Positions 2,875-55,129 of a DNA stretch of 64,000 bases are shown piece by piece (position 1 is the stretch's first letter; each line of letters opens with the position of its first letter). This DNA is from Zea mays (lineage: Eukaryota > Streptophyta > Magnoliopsida > Poales > Poaceae). The translations under genes and the position numbers were made by a program. The notes beneath the pieces were generated by a model that saw only the letters and a program-made list of their open reading frames with translations, was not told the DNA's origin and searched no databases. The stretch spans positions 121,227,898 through 121,291,897 of the forward strand of contig NC_050105.1 in NCBI RefSeq assembly GCF_902167145.1, written 5' to 3'.

Positions 2875-2875
2875 T

Positions 2876-2894
2876 GTAACACCCCTGGTGTTAC
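2876..2894 (+). repeat. Terminal hairpin of C LTR (5' copy)
   Basis: Perfect 8-bp inverted repeat, GTAACACC and GGTGTTAC with a CCT loop, one base inside the LTR end. The same structure is at 12520-12538 in the 3' LTR. Confidence 0.8.
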
Positions 2895-4185
2895 TGTAAC
2901 TAAAACTTGAGCATGGCATCATAAGCATTGGCATTGCATATGTTTGATACACCTAGAGTGCATTCACTAGGCAAAAATTTCAAACAAGTTGTATTGTTTT
3001 AATGTTTTGCAAATAGGACCCTGGATAGGAAGCTTTAACCCTAAATAGGGATTAAAGGGGTAAAACTTAACCTAAGATGAGAAAACCTAAAAGCTTTAGG
3101 GTAAAAGTCATAAAATGACCCCAAAAATAAAGTTGAATCACATTTATACCCCTGGGATACCAGAAACCCTAATTGGAGCCCTAGAAAACACTGAAACCAA
3201 ACTCTAGGGGCTTATGTGCAAAAGTGATGAACCTTTGGACTAAAGTGTAAAAACTACCATGTTTAAACATATAAAGTCATTTGGTTCACAAATATGTGGC
3301 CTTGAAAGCCAAACCCTAAGTTTTGGACTTAAATGCAAAATGGACCTCAATTGAGTTCTATTCTAAGTCTGAAAATCAGAGAATTGGCTCAACTTTGGAG
3401 CTTTGCATCTTTCAAATTATAGGGTTTTTGCCCTAGGTCACCACATCAAAATTGTAGCCCAATTATAGGAGAACAACTTTGCTAAAGAGTGTGAGCTCAG
3501 TTGTTAAGAAAAATTTGGAGATAATCATGCTTAAACTTTGGCTGTCAGGCTGGATTCATTCTGAAATTCAGCTTTTCAGTGTAACAGGGTCAACTTTGAG
3601 TATGAATTCAACCTTGATCCAGTGCTCACATAAGTTTAAACCCTATAGTCGAGTTGTAGCTGGTATGTAGCACGACAACTTTGATGCAGAGACTTGGACC
3701 TGTTGCCACATGGAATTAAGAGAAATTGGAGCTCCAAAGTACTCTGTCAGCTGCTCTGAATTGGTGTTCGCCATTGTACAGTAGCTGAAACAGATAAGGT
3801 CGCCAGCGAGGCTGTCTTCACCGCCGGTGGCTTTCCGCCGTGATTCACGTCGCCGGCGTCACGATTCGCGCTCGGGTATGTGGATAACTTCGCGGCGTCA
3901 AAAGATCGTCCCCGCCCATGACCTGGACACCACACCGACTAGCCGTAGTCCATCTCCCCTGGCTCACCGCCCGCGGTAAAGTGCTCACCGTCGACCGCCG
4001 CCTCTCGGCCATGCGCCGCGTGGCTCAATCCTTCCACCGCGTCGCTGTAACTTGCTACTGCTGTCAAATCAACGCCGGTGAGGTTGCCACGGCGTAGGAC
4101 ACTAATTCGCGTGCGCCAGTGCCTTCTTCCTCATCTCCGACCGCCGCGTGTCTCGTCCAAATTCGCGGCCACCGCCCGTCCTCCC

Positions 4186-4191
4186 TATAAA
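4186..4191 (+). promoter_or_regulatory. Candidate TATA box in C 5' LTR
   Basis: TATAAA in CTCCCTATAAATTGAGCCC, at the downstream edge of a GC-rich segment. The only clearly plant-like TATA context I noticed in the LTR; the 3' LTR copy is at 13830-13835. Would place the RNA start near 4215-4225, giving a very long R-U5. Confidence 0.5.
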
Positions 4192-6901
4192 TTGAGCCCA
4201 TAACTAGCTCCGTGAGGTCGTCAGCTAACTAGCCACCGCTAATCGGCCACAATCATCCACCCGTGAGCTCGAATTCGGAGTTTCCCCCAAATCTCTTTCC
4301 GCCACCGTGAAACAAGCTTCACCGTCGTCAGCCCAACTCCGGTTAGCTCCTCCCCTCTGCTCTCTTGTTTAAGCATTCTTATGCGTCTACGATGCTTGCC
4401 GAGCCATTGAATTGAACTGAGAGTTCTCTGGTCGCCGGGAACACGGCTGTCTTGCCGCGATGCTCACGACCACCGTGGCCAGAGCTCCATAGTCGATTAT
4501 AAACGCAATTAAGTTAGGGGAAATGATCATGGTAACCCCGATTTCATGTCCGCCGCTCGGAGAACCCAGCCATAGCCCCAATCGGCCGGTCCAGGACCTC
4601 GCCGGAGTCTCTCCGCGCGCGTCGCCGTCGTGGACCGCCCACTGCGAAGAAATAGAACATCAGGGGCATTTCTGCAAATCGTCAGTGACTCTGTTAAACA
4701 GTGAGAGAACCTGTTTGCGATTAGTAAAAACCCCGAGTCCCTTTCTGCAAAGCTGCCAGGGCGCGGGCGCGCGCGGGCGCCTTTCTGCCCTAGCTGGGCC
4801 GCCTGGGCTGGATTTGGCCCAGTGCTGTTCAATTGTTTTTCTTTTTCTTTTATCTCCAGAGCCAAAACAATTATAGAAAAATGTAGAAAAATGCTAAAAT
4901 TGTGAAACTAATTTTCCTAGGCTTGTTATTTTCCCTAGAATTTAATAAAAATAGTTTTGTGATTTTTAGTGGAAATAAGAAATTTTAGGGTATTTAAAGA
5001 AGTTAAAAGTATTAGTTATGGATTTTTAGAAAATAATTGGTAACTCCAAAAATGATCAAATTTTTATATGAGTTCCTCATAATATTTAGAAGCCTTGGGT
5101 AGAGTTTGAATTGATTTGGACCTTGTTTGATCACCAAAACCCAAAACCACCCCCCTGCCCTATGAACTCCTTTACCGACTCCGGAAACCCTAAGTTCCCG
5201 GAATTCCGTGAAGGAAAGTTGTATTCAAGACATAAATAATAAGTTTATGTTACCTTTGCATCCTCATGAGCATCCCATGACATCCATTCTTATACATATG
5301 TATGGTTATGGTTAGAACGTGAAGAAGAAATCGAAGTAACTGAAGAGGAGACACCACCACCACCTTCGGAGTCTCAGGCCGGGAATTGTTTTTACTTTGA
5401 TATCTGCGGATCTGAGCCTGATTCACCTGTGAACGAAGGCAAGCCCCGGTGCATGCAACCCCTTTCCTTGTGTTTTTAAATACTTTTTGCACACTTAAGT
5501 CTAGTGAAATGTGCATTAGGTTCATAGGAGTTACCTGAAAACCTTTGATGCATTGCTTTCCTTGATATCCATACCTTTATAGATACTTCTGTTGAGTATC
5601 AAAATATGATTTACAAAAATGCTTAGCCTTGCTTAGATCTTGTGGATAGAGGTTGTCCTCAATTTAACCATGGAGAGGATGGCTTCTACCTGCAAGAATA
5701 TTTTCATTTGGAGCAATAGTTGGATCTTACTGCAAAGTTCCCTGTGATGCTCTTTCATCCTAAGGAACAGACACAATCCTAAGGATGGAAATGCTTAAAT
5801 TGAGACTTGGGTTAGGAACAGGTGATGTTCTACCCAGGTTGGTTAAGGATTAACGTGTATGTAGGCGTGCTGACCGAGGACCCTTTAACTGGTCACATGC
5901 CTCGTCATGGGTAAGCCTTGCCTCGGGCAGACTAAGGCCGGAATAAGATAACACGAAATGGACGTGGAGCGGTGGCGAGAGTAGCGTGTACCCTCCGTGG
6001 CAAGAGGCTGGACGGTGGTGTATCTGTGCTCTCGGTTTGCGTGAACCTGATCCGGTCTTAAGAACCCCGGTGGCGGGTTGACATATGCAAGGGTTAAGTG
6101 CTACATATGTCGTGTGATTGGAGATCCTCAGCTGAGTATAATCGATTCGGATCGCCGTACCTTCGCGGTTATGAAGACTTGGTCACTTTTCTACAACGTA
6201 AGTCAGGATGTGAACACGATGGATAAAAATGATGTTGTCTTGATGTGATGTGAAATTAGACTAGATGCAAATAGAGTCTATTAATACTTAATATGGCGTT
6301 AAAAGATTGAAAGTAAGGACTCACTTTAGTAAGCTACTTCTGCAAAAGTATAAGTTGATTTTTGCTAAAGCCTCTCCTTGACTCCTATTTATCCAGCATA
6401 CCCTTGAGAGTCTTTTCCTTAGTCGGGTAAGACTTGCTGAGTAATTCCATACTCAGGGTTTATCCCTTTGTTGTTTTTAGGTGAGGAAGCGACAAATTTT
6501 TGTTGCTTTTGCTCCAAGGTGGTACCAAATGAAGAAAAACAAGACTAAAGTGCGGGAGGACTTGGTCCTCCACATAGGATCTTTTGCTTTAAACTTATCG
6601 GGAGGAGTCTGTGCCTCCCTTGGTTTGTATAATATTACTACTCTGCACTCACTTTTAGTCTGGTCTGTAATAAAATAACTCAAGCTTGCTTTTGAAATAA
6701 ATGTAAGTTTATGTAATTGCTTCCGCATTTCTTTATCTCCGATGTTCTGTAATGTCTGCAAGACGGGTGAAACGTTCCTGGTGAGGTAAGGAAAGATACC
6801 GAGCTTGTCAAGTGACTTAGGAACATCTACAGGGTGTCTGATGTCCGTGGGACAAGGACAACTGTAGGTGGGCCTAATTACTTGGGAGGTTCCGTCACAG
6901 C

Positions 6902-6913
6902 TGGTAACGGAGC
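6902..6913 (+). other. Primer-binding site of C
   Basis: TGGTAACGGAGC begins 3 nt after the 5' LTR end. It resembles the initiator Met-tRNA complement TGGTATCAGAGC with two mismatches, as usual for plant chromoviruses. Confidence 0.75.
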
Positions 6914-7137: not shown

Positions 7138-7722
7138 ATGCCGCCACGCACTAGGCTAACGGCACGCAAGTCTATGGGACCAATTGGGGTGCCTCGGCAT
7201 CAATTGGCTCCCCGACATGAAAGCAGCAGCAGTGGAAGTAACGATCCCATCGGAGATCTTGAAGCCCGTGTGAGTCGACTTCAAGCAGCACTGCAACATA
7301 GGACCGATGTTTGGGTCGCTGACGGAGATAGAATCAATGAACTGAGAAGGGACATCCGACATCTGCAGGATCAGCTCGCTGATCGAGACTTAGCACTTGA
7401 CTGGGCTGTACAGTCTCGTTTGCTAATATGTGCTAAGGAAGCAAGGGCTCAGGCCCGAATTAAAGAACTTAGCTCGACTGTCGATGACCTGCAGGTTTAC
7501 TGCAATACGTTGCATGAGGAAGTCCATATATTATACTCACAGTTACACCCTAGTGAGCCTGCACACCCTGCTGAGGCGAAAGCCGGACCATCTCACGTTG
7601 CGGGACGCGTGCTGGGTGGGGAGTTAGACCTTTTTGAGCCCCCTCGTTCTTTGAGGTTGGTTGATGTCTGGACTCCCACACCTGACGATGAGGCCGCCAA
7701 GAGTAATGGAAAGCAGGAATAA
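7138..7722 (+). CDS. Extra ORF upstream of gag in C: histone H3 tail-like N-terminus plus coiled coil
   Basis: 194-aa protein. I chose the ATG at 7138 over the in-frame ATG at 7090 because a good splice-acceptor-like TTTTCCCCCTTAG lies just before it and the H3-like sequence starts there. Residues 4-24 read RTRLTARKS, one variable residue, G, then a short linker and PRHQLA. This aligns to histone H3 R2-A21 with 13 identities and a one-residue insertion; the K9 and S10 equivalents are kept. A Ser-rich linker follows, then a long heptad-rich coiled coil at about residues 45-150, then an acidic C-terminus. No retroviral enzyme motif. It lies 184 nt upstream of gag. Function unknown; a chromatin-mimic role is inference. 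Confidence 0.8.
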   Translation: MPPRTRLTARKSMGPIGVPRHQLAPRHESSSSGSNDPIGDLEARVSRLQAALQHRTDVWVADGDRINELRRDIRHLQDQLADRDLALDWAVQSRLLICAKEARAQARIKELSSTVDDLQVYCNTLHEEVHILYSQLHPSEPAHPAEAKAGPSHVAGRVLGGELDLFEPPRSLRLVDVWTPTPDDEAAKSNGKQE

Positions 7723-7906: not shown

Positions 7907-10900
7907 ATGCCGACCAGGACTTGAGGACAGGACGCAGCCGGAACTTCTGGGGGAAGGGATGTTACCCCAAACCCACCTCCGGTTCCTCCCACGTTAGCCG
8001 AGGAGATTGCCGCCTTGGTGAATGCCACCGCAGACAATACCCGCTTCCTTAGGGAAATGGCGGGTCAGCAGCAATTCCAGCAGCAGGCAGGAAGAGGTTA
8101 TCCGCAAGGCCCCCGTGAGACCACCTATCTGGACTTCTCTGAAACCCGTCCACCCCTATTCGTCAAAGCTGAAGATCCCCTAGAAGCTGATGAATGGATT
8201 CGGGTTATTGAACAAAAGTTTGGTCTTCTCCGTTGCTCAGAGACGCAGAAGCCGTTGTTCGCAGCACAGCAACTCCGTGGTCCTGCCAGTACCTGGTGGG
8301 GAAATTTTGTGGCTATTCAACCTGTCAACCATCAAGACACCTGGGATGAGTTTAAAGCAGCCTTCCGTGAGCACTACATACCTGAAGGAGTGCTGCATAT
8401 GAAACAAGAGGAATTTATGAAGTTAAAACAAGGTGGAGATACCGTCAACCAATATCTCAACAAGTTTAATCACCTGTCACAGTATGCCATTGACCAGGTG
8501 AATACTGATTTAAAGAAGAAGAACTGTTTTATGCGGGGTTTAAATGATCGGCTACAGAGAAAGATGGCCACATGCATAGATCTCACGTATGGAAAGGCTG
8601 TCAGCACAGCCTTATCTGTTGAAGCCAAATATGCAAATTCTGGGAAGAATAAGGGATTCGGTGGTGAGAGGCCTAATCAGGGCCAGGCGAAGAAGCAACG
8701 GTTTGTGATCCGACCTTCAAATCAAAATCGCCCTTTTTCTCGTCCACCCTCATTCCCTTTCAAACAACCTATCATTATTCGCCCCAACAATACCCCAAAT
8801 CAGCCAGGTGCCCCAGGCACTCGATTCCCTGCCTTGCCTAGTTCTTCAACTGGGTGCTTTAATTGCGGCAAGTCGGGACACTTCATCAAAGACTGCCCAT
8901 ATCCTAGGCAAAATCAATCAAATGCTCCGCAAGGATCTGGGAAATCAGCTCAGCCCAAAGGAAATGTTGTGGGGAAGAATACAAAGAAGACGGGGCGTGT
9001 ATATTACACCCAAGTGGCTACTACACCGGAAGGAGAGCCGGTGATGATGGGTACGTTTCCCGTGGCCAGTCACCTAGCAATTATTCTTTTTGATTCTGGT
9101 GCTTCGCATACATTTATTAGCAAGAAATTTGTGGAGCAACATCATATTGCATACCATGAATCAAAGGAGGGATTTAAAATTCATTCACCTGGGGGACACA
9201 TTTTTACTAGAGAAGTGGCCTATGGAGTGCCAGTAACAATGGCCGGGCGGAACTTTCCTGCTAACATGATTGTTCTAAAAGGCCAGGATATAGATGTAAT
9301 TTTGGGTATGAATTGGTTAACCCAACACAAGGCAATTCTCAACACTGAACTCAGAACCGTCAGGTTGAGCTATAATCAAGAAGAGATTCTTTTGACTCTC
9401 CCCGCAACCAATCCAGCCAAAACTTCTGGTAGAGTATACGAAGCCATTGTACCGGAGATCAAGAACATTCCGGTAGTATGTGAGTTTCCAGATGTATTTC
9501 CGGAAGATTTGCCTGGACTGCCCCCTGAAAGAGATGTAGAATTCGTAATTGAGCTAAAGCCCGGTACGGCTCCCATCTCCCGAAGATCGTACCGTATGCC
9601 CCCTAATGAGTTGGCGGAATTGAAGATTCAATTACAAGATCTACTGAATAAGGGATTCATCCGGCCAAGCTCGTCCCCGTGGGGTTGTCCCGCCATTTTT
9701 GTTAAGAAGAAGGATCAAACCTTGCGAATGTGCGCGGATTATCGACCCCTGAATGAGGTCACCATTAAGAATAAGTACCCTCTTCCAAGGATCGACATCT
9801 TATTTGATCAACTGACTAGGGCGAGGGTATTTTCCAAAATTGATCTCAGGTCGGGCTATCATCAAATCCGTATTCGGCCCGAGGATATACCGAAGACCGC
9901 GTTTACTACGCGATATGGATTGTTTGAATATCTGGTCATGTCTTTCGGGCTCACAAATGCTCCTGCCCACTTCACCTATTTGATGAACTCGGTGTTCATG
10001 CCCGAGTTGGACAAATTCGTGGTAGTCTTCATCGATGATATCTTGATATATTCTAAGAATGAAGAGGATCATGCTCAGCATCTACGGATTGTATTGACGC
10101 GCCTGAGGGAACATCAGCTATATGCCAAGTTCAACAAGTGCGCGTTCTGGCTGGAAGAAATTCAATTTTTGGGGCACGTGTTATCGGCTAAAGGAATTGC
10201 GGTAGATCCTAGCAAGGTCAAAGATATTCTGGAGTGGAAACCCCCAACAACTGTTCACCAAGTCCGGAGTTTTCTTGGACTAGCTGGATATTATCGCAGA
10301 TTCATACCAGATTTTTCTAAGCTTGTGAAGCCAATCACAAGTTTATTGAAGAATGACATTAAGTTCAATTGGTCTTCTAAGTGTAATGAAGCCTTTGAGC
10401 AATTGAAGACACTATTAACCACTGCTCCGGTATGGGCTCAACCGGACATCACTAAGCCTTTTGATGTATATTGTGATGCATCTGGCAGTGGGCTCGGCTG
10501 TGTACTGATGCAAGAGGGCCGAGTAATTGCGTATGCTTCAAGGCAGTTGCGCCGACATGAGGAGCATTATCCAACTCATGATCTGGAGCTAGCTGCTGTG
10601 GTTCATGCCCTGAAGATATGGCGTCACTATCTGCTGGGAAATATCTGTCACATATATACAGATCATAAAAGTTTGAAGTACATCTTCACCCAGTCAGAGT
10701 TAAATATGAGGCAAAGACGATGGCTTGAGCTCGTTAAAGACTATGAACTGGAGATCCATTACCACCCAGGCAAAGCCAATGTGGTAGCAGATGCGCTGAG
10801 TCGTAAGACCTCCTGCCACTGTCTTATGGCGAAGACCTCCGAGAACACTTTGTGTCAGGAGATGGAAAAACTAAACATGGGGATAATCCAACAAGGGACT

Positions 10901-12367
10901 CTAAATCAGCTAAAGCTTGAGTCAATCATTTTGCAAAGGGTAATTGATGCTCAAAAGGATAATCTGGGTATGAAGCACATACGAGAGAAGATAAGGGCTG
11001 GAGTAGCCAAGTGTTTCAAGGAAGACGATCAAGGTGTGATATGGTTTAAAAACCGCATAGTTGTGCCAAAGAACGAAGAACTCCGCCAGCAAATTCTTGA
11101 TGAAGCACATCTTAGTCGTTATTCTATTCATCTCGGAAGCACTAAGATGTACCAAGATTTAAAGCAGCATTACTGGTGGACAAAGATGAAGATTGAAATT
11201 GCACGCTATGTGGCTAGATGTGACACTTGCAGACATGTCAAGGCCATACACATGAAAACTGCTGGTCCATTACAATCTTTGCCAATCCCAACATGGAAAT
11301 GGGAAGACATCAGTATGGACTTTATTGTGGGATTGCCCAGGACAGCCAAAGGGTATGATTCTATTTGGGTTATCGTTGATCGACTCACAAAGGTTGCCCA
11401 CTTCTTACCTGTCAGGGTCACATATACAGTAGCCACTTATGCAGCATTATACATTGCCCGTATTCTCAGTCTGCATGGTGTTCCGAAGACCATTGTGTCG
11501 GATCGTGGACCTCAATTTGTAGCCAAGTTCTGGGAAGCACTTCACAACTCCTTGGGTACTAAATTACTCCACAGTTCGGCTTATCATCCTCAAACCAGTG
11601 GGCAAACTGAGAGGGTCAATCAAATACTGGAAGATATGCTGCGGGCATGTGTTCTGGACTTCTCACAAAGATGGGATGAATGTTTGCCCTTAGCGGAATT
11701 TTCATACAATAACAGTTATCAAGAAAGTATCAAGATGGCACCTTTTGAAGCTTTATATGGGCGACGGTGTCGAACTTCGCTAAATTGGTCTGAACCTGGA
11801 GAAAGATACTTCTTTAGGCCTGATATGGTAAAAGAGGTCGAAGAAAAGGTTCAGAAAATTGTTCATAATATGAAGAAAGCTCAGACTCGACAAAAGAGTT
11901 ATGCAGACCGACGACGACAACCCTTATGCTTTCTGGTAGGCGATTATGTCTACTTAAAAGTTTCACCAATGAAGGGTGTATCGCGTTTCGGGGTTAAAGG
12001 GAAGCTTGCACCCAGATACATTGGTCCATTCTTGGTGCTTGAGCAATGTGGACCAGTGGCATATCGACTCCAACTACCTGAAACATTGTCTGCTGTGCAT
12101 AATGTGTTCCACGTGTCACAATTGAAAAAGTGTCTTCGGGTTCCCGATCGAACCATTGAAGTGACTGATGTTGTCCTGGAACCAGATTTAACATACTCGG
12201 AACATCCTATTCGAGTCTTGGATCAAAAGGACAGGATCACCCAAAGAAAGACTCTCAAATTCTACAAAATACAGTGGAACCAGCATTCTGAAGATGAGGC
12301 TACATGGGAAACTCAAGACTTCTTGAATAAGAATTTCCCAGGCTTCCTAGCCTCATATAAATTGTAA
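7907..12367 (+). CDS. Gag-Pol polyprotein of C with C-terminal chromodomain
   Basis: One frame from the ATG at 7907 (just after TTTGCCACAG) to the TAA at 12365, but codon 6 is TGA (7922-7924). The next in-frame ATG is at 8057, so the true start may be 8057 or a spliced upstream exon. Domains, numbered from 7907: gag, residues 70-300; CCHC zinc knuckle [14 protein letters not shown] at about 317; protease [10 protein letters not shown] at 396; RT with FIDD at 709-711; RNase H with CDAS at 857; integrase HHCC near 1065-1115 and DD35E at D1138, D1199, E1235; GPY/F near 1365; chromodomain about 1430-1480. The chromodomain keeps one tryptophan but lacks the other cage aromatics (group II). Otherwise intact, so possibly a young element. 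Confidence 0.93.
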
Positions 12368-12518: not shown

Positions 12519-15500
12519 TGTAACACCCCTGGTGTTACTGTAACTAAAACTTGAGCATGGCATCATAAGCATTGGCATTGCATATGTTTGATACACCTAG
12601 AGTGCATTCACTAGGCAAAAATTTCAAACAAGTTATATTGTTTTAATGTTTTGCAAATAGGACCCTGAATAGGAAGCTTTAACCCTAAATAGGGATTAAA
12701 GGGGTAAAACTTAACCTAAGATGAGAAAACCTAAAAGCTTTAGGGTAAAAGTCATAAAATGACCCCAAAAATAAAGTTGAATCACATTTATACCCCTGGG
12801 ATACCAGAAACCCTAATTGGAGCCCTAGAAAACCCTGAAACCAAACTCTAGGGGCTTATGTGCAAAAGTGATCAACCTTTGGACTAAAGTGTAAAAACTA
12901 CCATGTTTAAACATATAAAGTCATTTGGTTCACAAATATGTGGCCTTGAAAGCCAAACCCTAAGTTTTGGACTTAAATGCAAAATGGACCTCAATTGAGT
13001 TCTATTCTAAGTCTGAAAATCAGAGAATTGGCTCAACTTTGGAGCTTTGCATCTTTCAAATTATAGGGTTTTTGCCCTAGGTCACCACATCAAAATTGTA
13101 GCCCAATTATAGGAGAACAACTTTGCTAAAGAGTGTGAGCTCAGTTGTTAAGAAAAATTTGGAGATAATCATGCTTAAACTTTGGCTGTCAGGCTGGATT
13201 CATTCTGAAATTCAGCTTTTCAGTGTAACAGGGTCAACTTTGAGTATGAATTCAACCTTGATCCAGTGCTCAAATAAGTTTAAACCCTATAGTCGAGTTG
13301 TAGCTGGTATGTAGCACGACAACTTTGATGCAGAGACTTGGACCTGTTGCCACATGGAATTAAGAGAAATTGGAGCTCCAAAGTACTCTGTCAGCTGCTC
13401 TGAATTGGTGTTCGCCATTGTACAGTAGCTAAAACAGATAAGGTCGCCAGCGCGGCTGTCTTCACCGCCGGTGGCTTTCCACCATGATTCACGTCGCCGG
13501 CGTCACGATTCGCGCTCGGGTATGTGGATAACTTCGCGGCGTCAAAAGATCGTCCCCGCCCATGACCTGGACACCACACCGACTAGCCGTAGTCCATCTC
13601 CCCTGGCTCACCGCCCGCGGTAAAGTGCTCACCGTCGACCGCCGCCTCTCGGCCGTGCGCCGCGTGGCTCAATCCTTCCACCGCGTCGCTGTAACTTGCT
13701 ACTGCTGTCAAATCAACGCCGGTGAGGTTGCCACGGCGTAGGACACTAATTCGCGTGCGCCAGTGCCTTCTTCCTCATCTCCGACCGCCGCGTGTCTCAT
13801 CCAAATTCGCGGCCACCGCCCGTCCTCCCTATAAATTGAGCCCATAACTAGCTCCGTGAGGTCGTCAGCTAACTAGCCACCGCTAATCGGCCACAATCAT
13901 CCACCCGTGAGCTCGAATTCGGAGTTCCCCCCAAATCTCTTTCCGCCACCGTGAAACAAGCTTCACCGTCGTCAGCCCAACTCCGGTTAGCTCCTCCCCT
14001 CTGCTCCCTTGTTTAAGCATTCTTATGCGTCTACGATGCTTGCTGAGCCATTGAATTGAACTGAGAGTTCTCTGGTCGCCGGGAACACGGCTGTCTTGCC
14101 GCGATGCTCACGGCCACCGTGGCCAGAGCTCCATAGTCGATTATAAACGCAATTAAGTTAGGGGAAATGATCATGGTAACCCCGATTTCATGTCCGCCGC
14201 TCGGAGAACCCAGCCATAGCCTCAATCGGCCGGTCCAGGACCTCGCAGGAGTCTCTCCGCGCGCGTCGCCGTCGTGGACCGCCCACTGCGAAGAAATAGA
14301 ACATCAGGGGCATTTCTGCAAATCGTCAGTGACTCTGTTAAACAGTGAGAGAACCTGTTTGCGATTAGTAAAAACCCCGAGTCCCTTTCTGCAAAGCTGC
14401 CAGGGCGCGGGCGCGCGCGGGCGCCTTTCTGCCCTAGCTGGGCCGCCTGGGCTGGATTCGGCCCAGTGCTGTTCAATTGTTTTTCTTTTTCTTTTATCTC
14501 CAGAGCCAAAACAATTATAGAAAAATATAGAAAAATGCTAAAATTGTGAAACTAATTTTCCTAGGCTTGTTATTTTCCCTAGAATTTAATAAAAATAGTT
14601 TTGTGATTTTTAGTGGAAATAAGAAATTTTAGGGTATTTAAAGGAGTTAAAAGTATTAGTTATGGATTTTTAGAAAATAATTGGTAACTCCAAAAATGAT
14701 CAAAATTTTTATATGAGTTCCTCATAATATTTAGAAGCCTTGGGTAGAGTTTGAATTGATTTGGACCTTGTTTGATCACCAAAACCCAAAACCACCCCCC
14801 TGCCCTATGAACTCCTTTACCGACTCCGGAAACCCTAAGTTCCCGGAATTCCGTGAAGGAAAGTTGTATTCAAGACATAAATAATAAGTTTATGTTACCT
14901 TTGCATCCTCATGAGCATCCCATGGCATCCATTCTTATACATATGTATGGTTATGGTTAGAACGTGAAGAAGAAATCGAAGTAACTGAAGAGGAGACACC
15001 ACCACCACCTTCGGAGTCTCAGGCCGGGAATTGTTTTTACTTTGATATCTGCGGATCTGAGCCTGATTCACCTGTGAACGAAGGCAAGCCTCGGTGCATG
15101 CAACCCCTTTCCTTGTGTTTTTAAATACTTTTTGCACACTTAAGTCTAGTGAAATGTGCATTAGGTTCATAGGAGTTACCTGAAAACCTTTGATGCATTG
15201 CTTTCCTTGATATCCATACCTTTATAGATACTTATGTGAAGTATCAAAATATGATTTACAAAAATGCTTAGCCTTGCTTAGATCTTGTGGATAGAGGTTG
15301 TCCTCAATTTAACCATGGAGAGGATGGCTTCTACCTGCAAGAATATTTTCATTTGGAGCAATAGTTGGATCTTACTGCAAAGTTCCCTGTGATGCTCTTT
15401 CATCCTAAGGAACAGACACAATCCTAAGGATGGAAATGCTTAAATTGAGACTTGGGTTAGGAACAGGTGATGTTCTACCTAGGTTGGTTAAGGATTAACG

Positions 15501-16544
15501 CGTATGTAGGCGTGCTGACCGAGGACCCTTTAACTGGTCACATGCCTCGTCATGGGTAAGCCTTGCCTCGGGCAGACTAAGGCCGGAATAAGATAACACG
15601 AAATGGGCGTGGAGCGGTGGCGAGAGTAGCGTGTACCCTCCGTGGCAAGAGGCTGGACGGTGGTGTATCTGTGCTCTCGGTTTGCGTGAACCTGATCCGG
15701 TCTTAAGAACCCCGGTGGCGGGTTGACATATGCAAGGGTTAAGTGCTACATATGTCGTGTGATTGGAGATCCTCAGCTGAGTATAATCGATTCGGATCGC
15801 CGTACCTTCGCGGTTATGAAGACTTGGTCACTTTTCTACAACGTAAGTCAGGATGTGAACACGATGGATAAAAATGATGTTGTCTTGATGTGATGTGAAA
15901 TTAGACTAGATGCAAATAGAGTCTATTAATACTTAATATGGCGTTAAAAGATTGAAAGTAAGGACTCACTTTAGTAAGCTACTTCTGCAAAAGTATAAGT
16001 TGATTTTTGCTAAAGCCTCTCCTTGACTCCTATTTATCCAGCATACCCTTGAGAGTCTTTTCCTTAGTCGGGTAAGACTTGCTGAGTAATTCCATACTCA
16101 GGGTTTATCCCTTTGTTGTTTTTAGGTGAGAAAGCGACAAATTTTTGTTGCTTTTGCTCCAAGGTGGTACCAAATGAAGAAAAACAAGACTAAAGTGCGG
16201 GAGGACTTGGTCCTCCACATAGGATCTTTTGCTTTAAACTTATCGGGAGGAGTCTGTGCCTCCCTTGGTTTGTATAATATTACTACTCTGCACTCACTTT
16301 TAGTTTGGTCTGTAATAAAATAACTCAAGCTTGCTTTTGAAATAAATGTAAGTTTATGTAATTGCTTCCGCATTTCTTTATCTCCGATGTTCTGTAATGT
16401 CTGCAAGACGGGTGAAACGTTCCTGGTGAGGTAAGGAAAGATACCGAGCTTGTCAAGTGACTTAGGAACATCTATAGGGTGTCTGATGTCCGTGGGACAA
16501 GGACAACTGTAGGTGGGCCTAATTACTTGGGAGGTTCCGTCACA
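12519..16544 (+). repeat. 3' LTR of element C
   Basis: Near-identical to 2875-6899, same termini (TGTAACACC...GTCACA). Followed by target duplication ACAGC at 16545-16549. Contains the terminal hairpin at 12520-12538 and the TATAAA at 13830-13835. Confidence 0.95.
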
Positions 16545-16882
16545 ACAGCCGACGAGGTGCCGCCTCCTGCTCGGCCATGGCTGCCCCGCCTCCTCCTCCG
16601 TCGGCGGGGGAGGCGACGGGACAAACCCGAATGTTGTTCTTCCGCCACGTGGGGAAGACGTCGTTGATTCTGCCGCCGGCGGGCGGGTTGTCGGCCGCCA
16701 TTGTCGCTGTCGCGCGGCGGAGGAAGGAGTATCATGTCGTAGCTGCCGTCGAGGGACATGAACTCAAGACTCCCGAAACGGAGAATCGTCCCGGGTTGGA
16801 GAGGTTGCTGGAGACTACCCATCTGGAGCTTGACGGGAAGCTGTTCGTCAACACGCAGCAGTCCCCTACCTGGCGCGCCAAC
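16545..16882 (-). other. Huck-1 leader and primer-binding site
   Basis: Stretch between Huck-1's 5' LTR and the C insertion. On the minus strand TGGCGCGCCAGGTAGGGG (16880-16863) starts 2 nt after the LTR and is the same primer site as in Huck-2 (58051-58034) and element F (58708-58725). The rest is untranslated leader and the upstream end of gag; it matches 57720-58053 of Huck-2. Confidence 0.85.
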
Positions 16883-18483
16883 TGTCGGTGTTTCGACCCC
16901 GGGGGGTCCCTGGACCGACGAGTAAATTGTCGCCGCGTGTCCCAGCCCAGATGGGTCGGCGCGAGACGGAGCACGAAGGGGGGAAAAAGGAAATGAGGCA
17001 GGCAAAAGGGGAAACCCGCGACCTTCGTGTTGTCCTGCACCCTGGTCGGGTGCGCTTGCAGTAGGGGGTTACAAGCGTCCGCGTGGGAGAGAGTGAGAGA
17101 CCTTACGCGTTGTCCCGTTCCCCCGCGCGGCCAACCTTTTTTGTATGAGAGCCCTGGACCTTCCTTTTATAGGCGTAAGGAGGGGGCCCAGGTGTACAAT
17201 AGGGGATGTAGCAGTGTGCTAACGTGTCTAGCAGAGAGGAGCTAGAGCCCTAAGTACATGCCGTCGTGGCAGCCGGAGAGGTTTTGGCACCCTGTTCATG
17301 TGATGTCGTGGTCGTCGGAGGAGCGCTGGAGCCTTGCGGAAGGACAGCTGTCGGGGCTGTCGAGTCCTTGCTGACGTCTCCTTGCTTCCGTAAGGGGCTG
17401 AGAGCCGCCGTCGTCATGGAGCACGCGGGGCGCCATCATTATTTGTTTACCGGGGCGAGCCAGATGGGACACCGGTCTTGTCCCCCATAGCCTGAGCGAG
17501 CTAGGGATAGGGTAATGATGACTCCCCCTGTGATGTGGTCGGCCCGAGCCCTAGGTTGGGCGAGGCGGAGGCTCCTCCGAGGTCGAGGTCGAATCTGTCT
17601 TTCGAGGTCGAGGTCGAGTGTGAGCCCTGGGTCGGGCGAGGCGGAGACCGTCGTCCGAGGCCAAGGCTGAGTCCGAGCCCTGGGGTCGGGCGAGGCGGAG
17701 TTCGTCGTCTTCCGGAGCCGAGGTTGAGTCCGAGCCCTGGGGTCGGGCGAGGCGGAGTTCGTCGTCTTCCGAGGCCGAGCCTGAGTCCGAGCCCTGGGGT
17801 CGGGCGAGGCGGAGTCCGTCGTCTTCCAGAGTCGAGGCTGAGTCCGAGCCCTAGGGTCAGGCGAGGCGGAGTTCGTCGTCTTCCGAGGCCAAGCCTGAGT
17901 TCGAGCCCTAGGGTCGGGCGAGGCGGAGTCCGTCGTCTTCCGGAGCCGAGGCTAAGTCCGAGCCCTAGGGTCAGGCGAGGCGGAGCTTCCTATGGCGCCC
18001 GAGGCCAGACTTGGCTGCTGTCAGCCTCACTCTGTCGAGTGGCACAACAGTCGGAGTGACGCAAGCGGCGCTGTTTTCTTGTCAGGTTGGTCAGTGGAGC
18101 GGCGAAGTGACTGCGGTCACTTCGGCTCTGTCGACTGAAGAGCGCGCGTCAGGATAAGGTGTCAGGCCATCCTTGCATTAAATGCTCCTGTGATATGGTC
18201 GGTTGGCGTGGCGATCTGGCCAAGGTTGCTTCTCTGCGAAGACTGGGCCTCGGGCGAGCCGAAGGTGTGTCCGTTGCTTGAGGGGGCCCTCGGGCGAGAC
18301 GTGAATCCTCTGGGGTCGGCTGCCCTTGCCCGAGGCTGGGCTCGGGCGAGGCGAGATCATGTCCCTTGAGTGGACTGAGCCTTGACTTAATCGCACCCAT
18401 CAGGCCTTTGCAGCTTTGTGCTGATGGGGGTTACCGGCTGAGATTAGGAGTCTTGGGGGTGCCCCTAATTATGGTCCCCGACA
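16883..18483 (-). repeat. 5' LTR of Huck-1
   Basis: 1,601 bp, + strand ends TGTCGGTG...CCCCGACA. Minus-strand TATAAAA (complement of 17165-17171, in CCTTTTATAGG) is the likely core promoter; Huck-2 has the same at 34363-34369. The middle holds a GC-rich tandem array. Confidence 0.9.
17545..17990. repeat. Tandem array in Huck-1 LTR (57-bp unit)
   Basis: Degenerate repeats of a unit containing GAGTCCGAGCCCTGGGGTCG and GGCGAGGCGGAG, period mostly 57 bp. Because the unit is a multiple of three, one frame stays open and translates to a repeated Arg/Ser/Pro-rich 19-mer; I do not regard that as a gene. Confidence 0.8.
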
Positions 18484-40355: not shown

Positions 40356-43073
40356 TGTCACACCCGGTTTTAGAAGGCAAACCGAATGCAAACCATGTAC
40401 GTGCCAGGATCAGTTATTCACGTACACAGCAGTTACATAATATGGACATCATCACACAGTGCTCAAAATAGTATCAATAAGGGAAATAATCGATTACATC
40501 ATACGTCTGAGACGTCCATATAGTTCTTACAATAAATCAAAGTGCGGAAAAGAAACGTAGATAACGCGGCCTTCACAGGCAACCGACTGGGGGGTTGCCG
40601 CTAACCCACACCTAGAACTCGTCGTAGTCTTGGAACTCCTGGAAGTCTCCTTCCACAGCTTCATCTTCGCCTGAGCAGTGGTTGCAATGCTGACAACCTG
40701 GGGGGGGGGGTTTGGTGTGTAGAGCAAGGGTGAGTACACATCAACATACTCAGCAAGTATCCCGTTTGGCTGTAGTGGACTAGCTTTATGTGGGGATAAG
40801 TCAAGCAGTTGCTTTTAGTTGGTCAGGTTATTACTTACTAGTAGAAAGCCAGGTTTTAACATTAACCCAAGTTATTAGCCCAATGTATCCTTTCCAAACG
40901 GAAAGAATACCACTTACCAATACCATAATCGTAATCAGAACCATCAATCTCATTGTCACCTGTACCAAAGTATCTCTGATCAAGTATCACTAATCTCTGG
41001 AGCTCCCTTGGCCGCTCATAACCGCGAGCACGGCTGATATATCAGTTTTATAACACTCTGCAGAGGTTGTGCACTTTACCCACAAGCCGTGATTCCCTCT
41101 CTGGCCCGGGCTTGCAAGACCCTTATTCACTCCCGAGGTGAATGGCCAAGGATTCACTACGAAGCCTTTACAAAGATTCCCCGGGGCTGTAGCCACCCGT
41201 TAGGTTTCCTAAATGTACCGCACTCCTCCCCAAGGGACAAATCAACCTTGGCAGAGCGAGCCGCATACACCGAGCCCCATTGACGGCACGACGGCGAAGC
41301 GAACTACACCCCGGATCCTCTAATTATTCAGCTAAGGGCACCCCATTCCACCCTCATGGTTGCACTGTTTTCCCGGGCGGTCATCCATTGAACAGGTCCT
41401 TACGGAGAGGCACTCGAGAAACCGCTCGAGTCCCCTTAAATGCCACAAGTATAATCATAAATAAGAACGGGAAAACAGCGTATCATAGATAACCACATCA
41501 TGTTCATTGATTAAAGTTGAGCAATAGCATCAAACTAAGCAGTAATAATCCGACCCAAATAGGTAAACAAGGACATGGATAACAAAAAGCTAGTCAATCC
41601 TTAGGTATAAATGTGTGATGCGGGAGGTGAATTAAAGAATGATTAGGACAGAGATAGGTCAAAGGACACTTGCCTCCACCAACCGACTGCTGCTCAGGGG
41701 CTTCTCCTGCGAATTCCTCGGGCTCTTCGACCGGATCGTTCTCTATGCGAGCGCAAACATACATACATCCATCCACATATTTAATACAAAAGAACAGTAC
41801 ACCATACAAGGGAACAAATAAAGCGAATATGCATCAAGTATGACATTTGACATTGCATTTGTTATGGTTAGAAAGAAACGGGAAAAGGGTCTCGCAGGGG
41901 GGGTTAAAGTTTATGCACTAATGATTAGTTAAATTATGCACTCTAGTTTCAATAGGTTCCTAACAAAAGAATTCTGTTATATGCACTAGTGGGAACCTAA
42001 TCATTTTAAGTTGATTAACATTGCACGGGATAAACAATTAACTGAATGAATCAACTAGCGCAACGAAATTCTAAATTAAACTTCTCATTTCCATAGCATG
42101 AACCATGATTAGTCTACCCAAAATAAGGTAATTATGATCACAGAAAGTTAATAAAATAAAATAAAAAAAATAAAAAAAACAGGGGGGGGCGGTTGAACCG
42201 GCCCTAGGGCGGTTGAACCGGCCGGCTGGGCGAGCGGCTGGGCCGGCCAGGGGCGCGGCCGAGCCAGCGGGCAGGGGGCGGCTGGCGGGCGGCCAGGGGC
42301 CAGGGGCGGCCGAGGGCGCGGCCAGGGCGGGCCTGGGGCGCGGCTGGGCGCGGCCGGGGGCGCGGCTGGGGCTAGGGCGCGGCCGGCGGCTGGGCTGGGG
42401 GCGGCCAGGGGCGCGGCCAGGGGTGGCCGGGCGGCTGGGCTGCCAAGAGGAGGGAGGAGGGGAGAGGGGAGAGGGAGGGAGGAGAGGGAAAGGGGGGGCT
42501 CACCGGCGATGGGCGGCCGACGGCGAGGGCGGCGGCCGAGCAGGGGGCGGCGGCGGTTAGGGCAGAGGGGTAGGGGCGGCGGCTTAGGGAGAGAGAGGGA
42601 AAATGAGAGGGAGAGAGAGAGGGAGAGGGAATTGGGGAAAAAAAAGGGGAGGTGGGGGGCGGCTGGGCCTGCCAAGGCCCAAGAGGGGGGGCGCGCAGGG
42701 GGCTTGGGCCGGCCAAGGGGCGGCTGGGCCGGCCAAGGAGCCCATGGCGCGGGAGAGAGGGAAAGGGGAAGAGGGAGAGAGAAAGAAAGAGAAAGAAAAA
42801 GAAAAGATTATTTCCCTGCTTTCGAAATCCGATCTTCCTAGATGAATGCATTTGCACTTTCAAACAATCAAAGAATGCATAGCTCGGCATGGTGCATCAA
42901 ACAACATAAAGTATTTTTTGAGTTTTTCTTTACACGGGAATTCCAAACCGAATCCCGCTAGCTTTGGAAAAAGTCAAGGTCTAGCGAGGGCAAAAAGAAA
43001 AAGAAAAGGTAACGCCCGAATTTGGCGAGTAAAGAAAAGAAAAAAATTCAACTGCAAAATTCGGGGCGTTACA
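40356..43073 (-). repeat. 3' LTR of E
   Basis: 2,718 bp; + strand ends TGTCACACCCGG...GGGGCGTTACA. 42180-42830 is extremely G- and purine-rich on the + strand; the long Pro-rich minus-strand translations there are low-complexity artefacts. Confidence 0.95.
42180..42830 (+). other. G-rich and polypurine segment in E LTR
   Basis: GGC/GCGGCC low-complexity DNA, then GGGCAGAGGGGTAGGGG, which with the next GGG run fits a G-quadruplex pattern (about 42560-42589), then long GA tracts to 42820. The C-rich strand is the RNA-like strand of E. The 5' LTR has the same at about 51165-51840. Confidence 0.7.
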
Positions 43074-43111
43074 AACCTATCCCCCTTAAAAGAATCTCGC
43101 CCTCGAGATTC
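43074..43111 (-). other. Polypurine tract and hairpin of E
   Basis: Minus strand: GAATCTCG/CGAGATTC stem (43111-43092) with a 4-nt loop, overlapping the pol stop codon, then TTTTAAGGGGGATAGG before the 3' LTR. Confidence 0.85.
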
Positions 43112-45305
43112 AGGGCTGGCTAGCAAAGAGCTCTGGGTACTTGGCCACTAGATCATCTTCACGCTCCCAGGTTGCTTCTTCCTCAGAGTGGTGATTCCAT
43201 CTGACTTTGCACATTCTGATGGTCTTCCTTCGGGTGACTCTGTCTGCAATCTCAAGGATCTGAGCTGGCTTCTCAACATAGGTCAAGTCCTCCTGGACCT
43301 CAAGACCTTCCACTGGCAACTGCTCTTCTGGCACACGCAAGCACTTCTTCAACTGAGACACATGAAAGACATCATGCACAGCAGACAAATTCTCTGGCAG
43401 GCTGAGCTGATAAGCCACTTCTCCACGCTTTGAGAGGATCTGGTACGGACCAATGTAGCGGGGTGCTAGCTTGTCTTTCACTCCGAATCTTCTGACTCCT
43501 CTGATCGGTGACACTTTCAGATAGACAAAGTCTCCGACTTCAAAACTCAGCTCTCTTCTTCTTGTGTCTGCATAGCTTCGCTGCCTCGATTGCGCTATCT
43601 TCAGATTCTCTCGGACCATCTTGATGTTCTCTTCGGCTTCAAGCAGAATGTCTGGCCCAAACACTTGCTTCTCTCCAGGCTGATCCCATTGCAACGGAGT
43701 TCTACAACTCCTTCCATAAAGCGCCTGAAACGGTGACATCTTCAAACTGGCCTGGTAACTGTTGTTATAGGAAAACTCTGCATAAGGCAATCGCTTGTCC
43801 CATCCGGACTGATCTTGCAACGCACAGGCTCTCAACATATCTTCGAGAATTTGATTGGTCCTTTTAGTCTGGCCATCTGTCTGCGGGTGATAAGCTGAAC
43901 TGAAATTCAGATGTGTGCCCAAGGCTTCATGCAACTGCTGCCAGAAATGAGAGGTGAACTGCGTTCCTCTGTCTGACACTATCTTCTTTGGCACACCATG
44001 AAGACAAACGATCCGAGACATATACAACTCTGCCAATACTGCATTGTTGTAGCTGGTCTTGACAGGTATGAAGTGGGCTGACTTGGTCAAACGGTCCACC
44101 ACTACCCAAATAGAATCGTAGCCGGCTCGAGTGCGAGGCAATCCGACTATGAAATCCATACCAATTTCATCCCATTTCCACTGAGGGATCTGCAACGGTT
44201 GCAACAATCTAGCTGGTCTCTGGTGCTCTGCCTTAATTCTTCGACAACTATCGCACTTAGCCACATGCTCTGCGATTTTCCTCTTCATTCCGTACCACCA
44301 GAATTTCTTCCTCAGATCCTGATACATCTTCTCACTACCAGGGTGAATCGAATAGGCTGTCTCATGAGCTTCCTTGAGGATCAACTCTCGAATAGACTGG
44401 ACATTGGGAACACATAAGCGGTCTTTGAACCATATCACGCCTTCAGCATCTTCTCGAAAATCTTTGCCTCTGCCATCTAGAATCAATCGCCGAATCTCAC
44501 TGATCTTTTCATCATTCTTCTGCGCTTCTTTGATTTCTCGCTCCAAGGTAGGTTCCAATTCAACTGTGACTCCTCGCGAATTGTTCAGAAACCCGAGACT
44601 CAACCTGTCGAACTCCTTGGCCAACTCATAAGGCATCGGGCGAGCGACCATTAGATTGACTTGACTCTTTCTGCTCAAAGCATCTGCCACTACGTTTGCT
44701 TTGCCTGGATGGTAATGAATCTCCAACTCATAGTCTTTGATCAGCTCTAACCATCTTCGTTGCCTCATGTTCAGCTCTATCTGAGTGAATATGTACTTCA
44801 GACTCTTGTGATCTGTGTAAACATCGCATTTCTGTCCATACAGATAGTGCCTCCATGTCTTCAGTGCGTGAACCACTGCTGCCAACTCTAGATCATGGAT
44901 TGGGTAGTTCTTCTCATGAACCTTCAGCTGTCGGGACGAGTAAGCCACAACTCTTCCCTCTTGCATCAACACGCATCCCAAACCTGTGTAACAAGCATCA
45001 CAATACACCGAGAAGGGCTTGTGCACATCAGGCAAGATTAGGACATGCGAGGTAGTCAACTTCTCTTTCAGCGCTTCAAAGGCCTCTTGACATTTCTGGG
45101 TCCATTTGAACTCAACCTTGTTGCCTAGCAACGCTGTCATTGGCTTCGCAATCTTCGAAAACCCTTCAATGAATCGCCGATAGTATCCGGCCATTCCAAT
45201 GAAGCTCTTGATTCCTCGAGCATCCGTTGGCGCTTTCCAGTTCAGAATGTCTGCCACTTTCTTCGGATCCACAGCCAATCCTTCCTTGTTGATTATGTGA
45301 CCCAA
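43110..45305 (-). pseudogene. E Pol part 2: RT end, RNase H, integrase, chromodomain
   Basis: Begins within RT at [10 protein letters not shown]. RNase H with [27 protein letters not shown] and YTDHKSL; integrase HHCC then [34 protein letters not shown] domain ([15 protein letters not shown]); C-terminal chromodomain (IADRVTRRKTIRMCKVRWNHHSEEEATWE), ending TGA at 43112-43110. It is continuous in sense with the upstream gag-RT frame, but a single-base change near 45315 moves the frame. Otherwise the domain set is complete. Confidence 0.92.
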
Positions 45306-47695
45306 GAACAGGACTCGCTGATCCAGAACTCACACTTGCTCAACTTTGCGTACAACTGGTGCTCTCGCAATCTCTGCAATACCATCCTCAAATGATCTGC
45401 GTGCTCTTCTTCGCTTTGGGAATAAATCAGAATGTCATCAATGAATACCACCACAAACTTATCAAGGTAATCCATGAATACATTGTTCATCAGATTCATA
45501 AAGAACGCTGGTGCATTGGTCAAACCAAAAGACATCACTGTGAATTCGTACAAACCATACTTGGAAATGAATGCCGTCTTCGGAATGTCCGAAGGTCGGA
45601 TCCTGAGCTGATGATAACCTGACCTCAGATCAATCTTGGAGAACACGCTGGCTCCTCTCAACTGGTCGAACAGATCCTCTATTCTGGGCAAGGGATACTT
45701 GTTCTTGATCGTGACCTCATTCAAAGCTCGATAATTGATGCACATCCTCTTGGTGCCATCTTTCTTTTCCACAAATAAGACAGGGGCGGCCCAAGGCGAG
45801 GTGCTTGGCCGGGTGTAACCTTTCTCTGACAGCTCATCAATCTGCTTCTTAAGCTCAACCAACTCTGGTCCGGATATTCTATAAGCTCTCTTAAAGATAG
45901 GGGCGGTTCCAGGAAGAAGCTCTATAGCAAACTCAACTTTCCGCTCTGGTGGCATACCCGGTAAGTCCTTTGGAAACACATCTGGGAATTCAGACACAAC
46001 CTTGATACTCTCAACTGGATCTGCTTCACTGCTATCGACAGCCATCTGATAACAACTTCCTTTCTTCGGCTCAGGTGGGACTAACTCGGTCACCACTTCC
46101 TTTCCTAGTGGGGACACCAACTTGATTGTCCTTTTATCACAACTGATAACTGCTTGATACTTATCTAACCAATTCATCCCTAGGATGACATCTATTCCCT
46201 GAGTACCCATTACTATAAGGTTGGCGGGAAACGCTATCCCCCTTATTTCCACACTTATATTTAAACAAATGCTATCAGCTCGAATTCTACCACCAGCTGA
46301 GTCAATTTGAATGGGGGTTGACATGGTAGTAGTTGGAAGATTATGTGCTTCTACCCATGATGCAGTAATGAAAGAATGCGTTGCTCCAGTATCAAATAAC
46401 ACTTCTGCAATATGGGAGTCGACTGGGAACATACCTACTATCATGCCGGGGGTCTCCTGAACTGCTTCAGCCTCCAAGTGATTCAATCTTCCATGATTAT
46501 AGCGCTGTTGAGGGCGGTTGCCTGCTCCAGGCTGAGACACATTCTGCTTTGCTGGGGCATTGGGGCCTGACTGCTGCTGGGCTGCCTTCTTCGGACATTG
46601 CATCACCCAATGGCCCTGCTCTCCACAGTGGAAACATGCCCTGTTTCCAACCTGAGCTGGTGCTGCCTGACTGTTCTGCTGGTTTGCTGGGGCAGGAAGA
46701 CGGGGTGCTTGCTGATTCTGCCTTTGAAACTGACCTCCTGACTGATTGCTCTGACGGTTCTGGTACTGATGCTGAGGATACTGCCTTTGGAACTGCTGAT
46801 GCTGCTGACGCTGCTGAGGTGGACGCTGGTTCTGCCTGAACTGCTGAGGTTGATTGCCTGAAAAACGAGGGCGGCTGCTGCTTCCAGGCTGGGGTCCACT
46901 GATCTTGCGCTTACGATCTTCCATCTCCTTACGCTTCCTTTCTGTCATGATCGCTCTATCAATCAGGTGCTGGAATGTCGGGAAGGTGTGATTCATCAGT
47001 TGATACTGCAGGGGGTCGACCAAGCCTCTCAGAAAACGGTATTGTCGCTTGGCGTCAGTGTTGACATCCTCAGGAGCATAGCGAGACAATTGCAGAAACC
47101 TGTCTCGATACTCACTGACAGATGATGACCCTTGCTTAAGGGCCAGGAACTCCTCCTTCTTCACTGTCATCAGACCTGCAGGCACGTGGTACTGACGAAA
47201 GCTACCTCTGAATTCTTCCCAGGTGATGGTGTCGGGGTTGGCATGGGTGGCGAGGTAAGACTCCCACCATGATTGGGCTGCTCCTCTCAACAGACGGGGA
47301 CCATACAAGACTTTCTCCCTGTCATCACACTGAGCGGTATGCAACTCCCGCTCCACAGTGCGCAGCCAATCTTCAGCATCCATGGGGTCAGAAGAGTGAG
47401 CGAACGTTGGGGGATGACCTCTCATGAATTCAGCACGCTTGTCTCTGGGCATCTGAGGCATCTGAGGCTGGGGTGGTGCTTGCTGCTGTTGCTGCTGCTG
47501 CTGCTGAATGGCGGCCAGAGTCTGACCGATGGCCTGAACTGCCTGAGTCTGCATCAGAAACATCTGCTCGATCGACATCGGGGGCGGGGGTGGCAGCTGC
47601 TGCTGCTGGGGCGCCTCATCTTGTTGACCGGCTTGCTCCTGCTGAGCACGCCTTCCTCCTCTGCCTGTTCTCTGACATCTGCAGAATGCAACCAC
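45293..47695 (-). CDS. E Gag-Pol part 1: gag, protease, RT (frameshifted end)
   Basis: Open from 47695 but without a nearby ATG: the open frame starts at a GTG and the first in-frame ATG is about 40 residues in. A splice-acceptor-like CATTCTGCAG ends at 47679. The N-terminus is Gln-rich (poly-Q from a CAG/CTG tract near 47483-47510). Gag core [23 protein letters not shown] knuckle [14 protein letters not shown] near residue 350; protease [11 protein letters not shown] near 430; RT with [13 protein letters not shown] near 755. The frame ends at TAA 45293 after a one-base slip inside RT, so Pol is truncated. Confidence 0.88.
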
Positions 47696-48081: not shown

Positions 48082-49095
48082 CTATGGTTCTAGATTTATC
48101 TTGGTCTTGCAGTCGGGATTGCCATAAGGCTGGTGTCCACGCTGAGGTGAGCGGTACGGGTGCTGAGTCCCGACGGGAGCGGGGGAACCACCATCCAGAT
48201 GACGACGTTCCGCGCGCTCAGCCCGCAGCAGGGCGATCTCAGCATGAGCCCTACTCAGCTCGTCTAATGCATGGTCCAGCTCCGTGTTTAGCACGGCGGC
48301 TAGGTTGACGGTGCTGCTCAACCTAGGATTGCCCTCACCGACAGGTGAGACAATCACGCCTCCTGTGCTGCCAGATGGACGGCAGGGGTAATACTTCAGG
48401 TCAAGACCGTCAGCTGCCCCACCGAAAACCGAGCAGTAGTGCGAAAGCGCACGCCGTGCAGCATCTTGCATGGCTGCCTCAGCTGAGTCCCGTTCAGAGA
48501 TAGAATAGTGCTCTGAGCAGGCCTCTGCACCCTGGAGACTGTTCTCCGGGCAGCGCACCAAGCAAGTTGCCTCCCAGCGGTCCGGGTAGACCCCGCGACT
48601 ATGCTGGTAGACCACACAGCGATACTCGACGGACCAAGTATGCCGGTCAAATGCCCGACGTAGCAGGGTGTCGAGCGCATCGTGGAAGTGACACCCGCGA
48701 GCAGCGTCGCGAGTGATGGGTCGAGCAACCCATCCTTCCGGCTCAAGGTTAGCAGAGAAGTCGGTGTCGTGGCTCGAGCTGTCGTCGCCATCTCCGTCGT
48801 CTGGGTCTCCTCCAGCAGCTACTCCAGAAGCTGGGGCGCCCAGTGGTGGTGCAGGGGGCGGCTCCAGAGGAAGCACAGGAGAGCAGCTCCTCACAGACTC
48901 TATCTCCTGGTGGAGCAAGAAAGAAGAGCCCTGCTGCTCCTGTCGTCGACGTTCCTGCTCCTCACGCAGGCGGTGGTGTAGTCTCTCCAAGTGGTTGGAC
49001 TGTCCGGCCACGGGACGGCGAAGCGGACGCTCAGCAAGGCGGGAGGGTAAGAAGGGGATGACGGACTTTCGTGCAGTGTGTCTAAGTCGAGCCAT
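48082..49095 (-). CDS. Extra ORF upstream of gag in E: H3-like N-terminus, possible dsRNA-binding fold, coiled coil
   Basis: 337 aa, ATG at 49095 directly after TGTCTTTTGTAG (splice-acceptor-like). After the Met, residues 1-10 are ARLRHTARKS, the same register as histone H3 A1-S10 with K9 kept. Then come a basic/Arg-rich helix with REEQERRRQEQQ, an acidic low-complexity linker (about 85-120), and residues about 135-230 in the order helix-strand-strand-strand-helix (FHDALDTLLRRAF; WSVEYRCVVYQ; WEATCLVRC; DSAEAAMQDAARRALSHY), reminiscent of a double-stranded-RNA-binding domain. A coiled coil follows at about 270-305 and a charged tail. Stop TAG 48084-48082. No enzyme motif. Position matches ORF1 of C. 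Function unknown. Confidence 0.75.
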   Translation of the reverse strand: MARLRHTARKSVIPFLPSRLAERPLRRPVAGQSNHLERLHHRLREEQERRRQEQQGSSFLLHQEIESVRSCSPVLPLEPPPAPPLGAPASGVAAGGDPDDGDGDDSSSHDTDFSANLEPEGWVARPITRDAARGCHFHDALDTLLRRAFDRHTWSVEYRCVVYQHSRGVYPDRWEATCLVRCPENSLQGAEACSEHYSISERDSAEAAMQDAARRALSHYCSVFGGAADGLDLKYYPCRPSGSTGGVIVSPVGEGNPRLSSTVNLAAVLNTELDHALDELSRAHAEIALLRAERAERRHLDGGSPAPVGTQHPYRSPQRGHQPYGNPDCKTKINLEP

Positions 49096-55128: not shown

Positions 55129-55129
55129 T

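Follow-up and report, generated by a model that had tools for sequence, protein, structure and literature searches.

The window analysed here, a 64,000-nucleotide stretch of Zea mays DNA (NC_050105.1, positions 121,227,898 to 121,291,897, assembly GCF_902167145.1), is retrotransposon-rich and contains two elements, designated A and B, that are chromoviruses (chromodomain Ty3/gypsy elements) by their domain content. Chromovirus A, on the plus strand, is bounded by a 5' LTR of 4,025 bp (2875..6899) and a 3' LTR (12519..16544) that are 99.2% identical, and the 5' LTR is adjoined by a primer-binding-site-like sequence, TGGTAACGGAGC (6902..6913, plus strand), which we take to resemble an initiator-tRNA site. 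The gag-pol open frame (1436 aa, 8057..12367, plus strand) matches the Pfam families Retrotrans_gag, RVP_2, RVT_1, RNase H, integrase, and Chromo, the chromodomain (12239..12361) scoring just over the cut-off (25.7 bits against 25.1; E 1.1e-05). With an LTR divergence rate of 1.3e-8 per site per year, the LTR identity corresponds to an age of about 0.3 million years. The element is nested in another one (1-2870 and 16545-16907), its target-site flanks being ATAGC and ACAGC, and an uninterrupted, ~90% identical copy of this host element lies at 54848-58078 (near 57717). Chromovirus B, on the minus strand, comprises a 5' LTR (49356..52107), a gag-pol region (43110..47578) in two open pieces (47578-45293 and 45194-43110), and a 3' LTR (40356..43073); Pfam matches were obtained for the second gag-pol piece only and include RNase H and integrase, with Chromo below the cut-off (21.1 bits). 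Elsewhere in the window, tandem repeats of 57 and 54 bases (17592-18042 and 34721-35206) lie inside two related (~85% identical) stretches of other elements.

Both chromoviruses carry an additional open reading frame, ORF0, upstream of gag-pol. ORF0 of the young element A encodes 194 aa (7138..7722, plus strand) between the 5' LTR and gag-pol, in a frame that differs from that of gag-pol, and its body yields only sub-threshold Pfam matches of coiled-coil type (SlyX, 23.4 bits against a cut-off of 30). ORF0 of B encodes 337 aa (48082..49095, minus strand), and its body has no Pfam match. Taking an LTR of ~3 kb or more together with an ORF0 upstream of gag-pol as the layout of the Retrosat2/RIRE3/RIRE8 group, element A shows both features, and element B has the ORF0 and an LTR of ~2.7 kb, slightly short of that length; by LTR length and ORF0 layout, both fit the group. 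The presumed gag start of A (7907-7924, plus strand) reads MPTRT followed by an in-frame stop, the next ATG of the open frame being at 8057, and this MPTRT resembles the MPPRT with which ORF0 A begins.

Likeness of the ORF0 N-termini to the histone H3 tail

The N-terminus of ORF0 A (26 codons, 7138..7215, plus strand), translated as MPPRTRLTARKSMGPIGVPRHQLAPR, matches the tail of histone H3 beyond chance. Against the H3 tail sequence, we counted 13 identities (R2, T3, T6, A7, R8, K9, S10, G12, P16, R17, Q19, L20, and A21) with one residue inserted in the linker between R2 and A21, the same count as in the initial annotation, and Lys11 (codon 7168..7170, plus strand) is the equivalent of H3K9. 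The tail is rich in Arg. Since one extra residue precedes R2, A1 of H3 is not copied, nor are K14, K18, and K23, and in the window copy Leu occupies the Q5 position and Met the T11 position. That this likeness is too close for chance, as the initial annotation had judged, was borne out by two calculations. The local alignment with H3 has a score of 52, which no shuffle of these 30 residues reached in 20,000 trials (Gumbel fit p ~4e-5). In an anchored comparison, in which the register was fixed relative to Met (offsets -1, 0, and +1) and 12 H3 positions were scored, ORF0 A matched at 8 of 12, whereas at least 8 matches occurred in 0 of 10,000,000 random N-termini and at least 7 at a frequency of 3.9e-6. 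In searches of PDB sequences, H3 chains made up 18 of the 21 matches to the 26-mer, all of them weak (E 0.48-1.1), and were outscored by three designed repeat proteins (E 0.034-0.087), while a profile of the ORF0 A family matched H3 at E 0.73-0.98 only, and PDB searches with another profile (A2) returned nothing convincing.

ORF0 B begins with MARLRHTARKSVIPFLPSRLAERP (MARLRHTARKS at its very start) and, without gaps and counted from the residue after Met, is identical to H3 at A1, R2, T6, A7, R8, K9, S10, and P16, the K9 equivalent being Lys10 (codon 49066..49068, minus strand). Its anchored match is 7/12 (random frequency ~4e-6); by unanchored local alignment alone, which was equalled by 26 of 20,000 shuffles, the likeness is not striking. 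When every ATG-started frame of 60 aa or longer in the window (363 in all) was ranked by H3-tail match, first place went to ORF0 A (8), second to ORF0 B (7), and third to an ORF on the minus strand at 26707 (5). A profile comparison of the ORF0 A and ORF0 B bodies detected no homology (probability 0.7%; shallow alignments, Neff ~1.5), and a common ancestry of the two bodies is not supported by this comparison of shallow alignments. The residues common to both tails are encoded by different synonymous codons, and because of this difference a nucleotide-level motif was rejected as the cause of the likeness.

The third-ranking frame (25991-26707, minus strand) starts MARVRSTARVTR and is like H3 at A1, R2, T6, A7, and R8, with Val at K9. 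It matches Pfam PF04195 ("Putative gypsy type transposon") and could represent the additional, antisense ORF of a Tat-type element whose LTR-like repeats are short (18484-18832 and 27569-27916). We do not claim it as a third mimic, given the Val at K9, the 5/12 matches, and a random frequency of ~1e-3.

Conservation of the tail and of its lysine

A protein search with ORF0 A returned 1577 proteins at E<=10. The best 120 were aligned, and all family-A counts given here refer to these best 120 of 1577. The initial annotation had regarded absence or poor conservation of the motif in other copies as evidence against mimicry; among these homologues, the K9-equivalent Lys11 is present in 120/120. 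The R2 equivalent is kept in 111/120 and Arg stands at the K4-equivalent position in 115/120, followed by T6 (117), A7 (97), R8 (102), T11 (116), G12 (118), P16 (117), R17 (51), Q19 (120), L20 (120), and A21 (114). At the S10 position, His (87/120) is found more often than Ser (28/120), i.e., most members of the family carry ARKH and not ARKS, and the pattern R-x-[RK]-x-T-A-R-K is intact in 75/120, or in 20/120 if Ser is also demanded. The resulting consensus, RTR[RK]TARK[HS]TGPIGVPRHQLA, is slightly nearer to H3 than the window copy is (anchored match 9/12 versus 8/12). As to where the protein starts, 88 of the 120 homologues begin at the tail Met, 24 have an MHHAK-type leader, and 8 have another leader that looks like another frame; because a leader is thus absent in most and of differing type in the remainder, the in-frame upstream ATG at 7090 is an unlikely start and was rejected.

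The tail of family A does not stand out by its average conservation. Mean entropy over positions 1-30 is 0.53 and 0.46 bits in two 15-residue bins, and the body bins span 0.13-0.84; among these close relatives the tail is therefore, on average, no more conserved than the body. Two of the more diverged homologues, P0099 and P0116, share 88% of residues 1-26 with the window copy, against 55-84% in their other segments. To look for other ORF0 families, we used a query restricted to the N-terminus and a length range that excludes ordinary members of family A. Of 9 candidates, 8 proteins were obtained, with 78-95% identity across the part that was scored, and P0242, P0243, and P0247 among them combine a tail that is 69-85% identical with strongly altered bodies (33-69% identical from residue 46). 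As the tail itself was the selection criterion, these 8 proteins were not counted towards its conservation. Scans for the DNA of relatives found none, neither in viral contigs, queried with the RT region and with each of the two ORF0s, nor in one genome-contig scan with alignment A1.

The corresponding search with ORF0 B returned 847 proteins at E<=10, and the best 120 of 847 were aligned, 31 of which were without the N-terminal part, leaving 89 for all family-B counts. The K9-equivalent lysine is present in 87/89, the R2 equivalent in 74, Arg at the K4-equivalent position in 85, T6 in 87, A7 in 79, R8 in 77, and S10 in 82; R-x-[RK]-x-T-A-R-K is intact in 59/89, and in 54/89 together with Ser.

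Replacement of the motif lysine by Arg was observed in 0/120 family-A and 1/89 family-B sequences. At the other lysines compared, Arg occupies 42/479 cells in family A (positions 100, 103, 188, and 192; Fisher p 8e-5) and 103/323 cells in family B (positions 234, 330, and 332; Fisher p 9e-12), p-values that overstate independence because the sequences are related. Lysines 109 and 148 of the window ORF0 A were excluded from the comparison, Lys being in the minority there. One other lysine of ORF0 A, K100, is likewise invariant and never replaced, and ORF0 B is very lysine-poor, the K9 equivalent being the only one of its compared lysines kept in nearly all relatives. Lysine itself seems to be required at the K9-equivalent position.

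Candidate readers and the possible role of ORF0

The ORF0 of long-LTR chromoviruses is already known, having been published without a demonstrated function. An ORF0 upstream of a separate gag-pol ORF has been described in Retrosat2, RIRE3, RIRE8, FRetro3, and their grass homologues, it diverges much faster than gag-pol (the ORF0s of Retrosat2 and Sorsat2 are ~10% similar), and no elements with a Retrosat2-type ORF0 were found beyond the grasses (PMC3485330). Elements A and B share with these the layout of an extra ORF upstream of gag-pol; the published Ty3/gypsy elements have LTRs of at least 3 kb, and for the Retrosat2-group ORF0s metabolic enzyme functions were proposed from modelling (PMC3485330); the words "histone" and "chromatin" do not occur in the main text of that paper. 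The 5' aORF of Tekay elements in sunflower and grasses is similarly a family-conserved 5' aORF of chromoviruses, its product being predicted nuclear and likened to DRBM proteins as a possible modulator of RNA silencing (PMC11728184), again with no occurrence of "histone" in the main text. A review of aORFs (PMC7264820) does not use "histone" in its main text or treat these elements by name there, and the titles and abstracts of the open-licence literature searched describe no H3 mimic in a plant retrotransposon. Outside retrotransposons, the non-histone proteins G9a and GLP contain an H3K9-like motif that is automethylated and bound by HP1 proteins (PMC9768651). The putative ORF0 mimic likewise places an H3K9-like motif in a non-histone protein but differs from these in being encoded by a retrotransposon, in standing at the protein start in the H3 register, and, in A, in covering more of the tail.

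The initial annotation had proposed that the tail mimics H3 and could be methylated or read as H3K9me, either to tether the chromodomain integrase of the element to heterochromatin or to titrate silencing readers. The mimic reading has gained from the conservation of the tail, its recurrence in ORF0 B, and the near-invariant lysine, while the element's own chromodomain has become a weaker candidate for the reader. Compared with Clr4, the chromodomains of A and B keep the Trp and have His at the third cage aromatic, the first position lying outside the alignments. Plant group II chromodomains are reported to be without cage residues, the first and usually the third cage aromatic being missing by the group's definition, and their ligand is described as unknown (PMC3350952, PMC12786077). 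Because A and B have His at the third aromatic position, as in group II, reading of the ORF0 tail by the element's own chromodomain appears less likely. ADCP1, a plant HP1-like reader of H3K9me2, contacts R2, K4, and K9me2 but not A7, R8, and S10, whereas animal HP1 reads Q5-T6-A7-R8-K9me-S10 (PMC6318295). The pattern kept in families A and B, R-x-R-x-T-A-R-K, has the spacing of H3 R2-K4-K9, and the ADCP1 contacts would agree with Arg at the K4 position and with the frequent His at S10; a host reader such as ADCP1 thus appears to fit the conserved residues better than the chromodomain of the element does.

These observations can be accommodated by a mechanism in which the ORF0 N-terminus copies the H3 tail around lysine 9, its K9 equivalent would be methylated by host H3K9 methyltransferases (SUVH4/5/6 type), and the methylated tail would then be captured by Agenet proteins of the ADCP1 type or by CMT3, tethering ORF0 and the partners of its body to heterochromatin. 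ORF0 would act as an adaptor whose body (coiled-coil-like in A, unassigned in B) joins the components of the element while its tail displays a heterochromatin mark. Such a displayed mark would complement a group II chromodomain: the integrase chromodomains of chromoviruses would likewise bring element proteins to heterochromatin, but by reading the mark that the ORF0 tail would display (PMC3350952, PMC12786077). Methylation and capture by a host reader are favoured because the R2-K4-K9 spacing suits the ADCP1 contacts, and we put forward, tentatively, that the tail may well be methylated by the host and bound by a reader that tethers the element protein to heterochromatin. The fuller version, in which ORF0 would be a self-made heterochromatin tag, methylated by the host and bound by ADCP1, that brings the element into silent chromatin or shelters it there, is more doubtful.

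H3 tails also serve nuclear import, and the ORF0 tail might be a plain basic N-terminal arm for nuclear import or for binding RNA, DNA, or nucleosomes, its H3 likeness following from import or charge demands with no methylation involved. The Arg-rich tail of ORF0 A would suit such an arm, as would the nuclear prediction for all grass 5' aORFs examined (PMC11728184). Charge alone would, however, allow Arg in place of the lysine, yet Arg is found there in 0/120 family-A (best 120 of 1577) and 1/89 family-B sequences (from the best 120 of 847), and the uncharged T6 and A7 are kept as well (117 and 97 of 120 in A; 87 and 79 of 89 in B), so we consider a basic arm unlikely, if still a serious contender. 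We regard it as improbable that a gag-like start (MPPRT/MPTRT) was joined by a chance TARKS and kept for reasons other than H3: the presumed gag start at 7907 does read MPTRT, the family-A tail is on average no more conserved than the body, the family-A profile reaches H3 in the PDB at E 0.73-0.98 only, and 26 of 20,000 shuffles equal the local alignment of ORF0 B, but coincidence is opposed by the anchored matches (0 of 10,000,000 random N-termini for A, ~4e-6 for B), by a family consensus that is nearer to H3 than the window copy (9/12 versus 8/12), and by the recurrence of the tail in ORF0 B.

As a decoy, ORF0 would weaken silencing of the element by competing against H3, as substrate or ligand, for the H3K9 methyltransferases or the readers; this explanation draws on the same sequence evidence as tethering to heterochromatin. 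The known inhibitory form of H3 has Met at K9, whereas ORF0 keeps the lysine, and since the amount of a retrotransposon protein probably falls far short of that of histone H3, the competition would have to be local; we hold this explanation to be quite improbable.

If the heterochromatin-tether reading is true, the tail would be the constant part of an otherwise fast-changing ORF0, common to two families without detectable homology between their bodies, and this would be a case of histone mimicry in which a retrotransposon puts a silencing mark on display. With its conserved H3K9-type N-terminus, ORF0 offers a specific and cheap test of how long-LTR chromoviruses meet heterochromatin.
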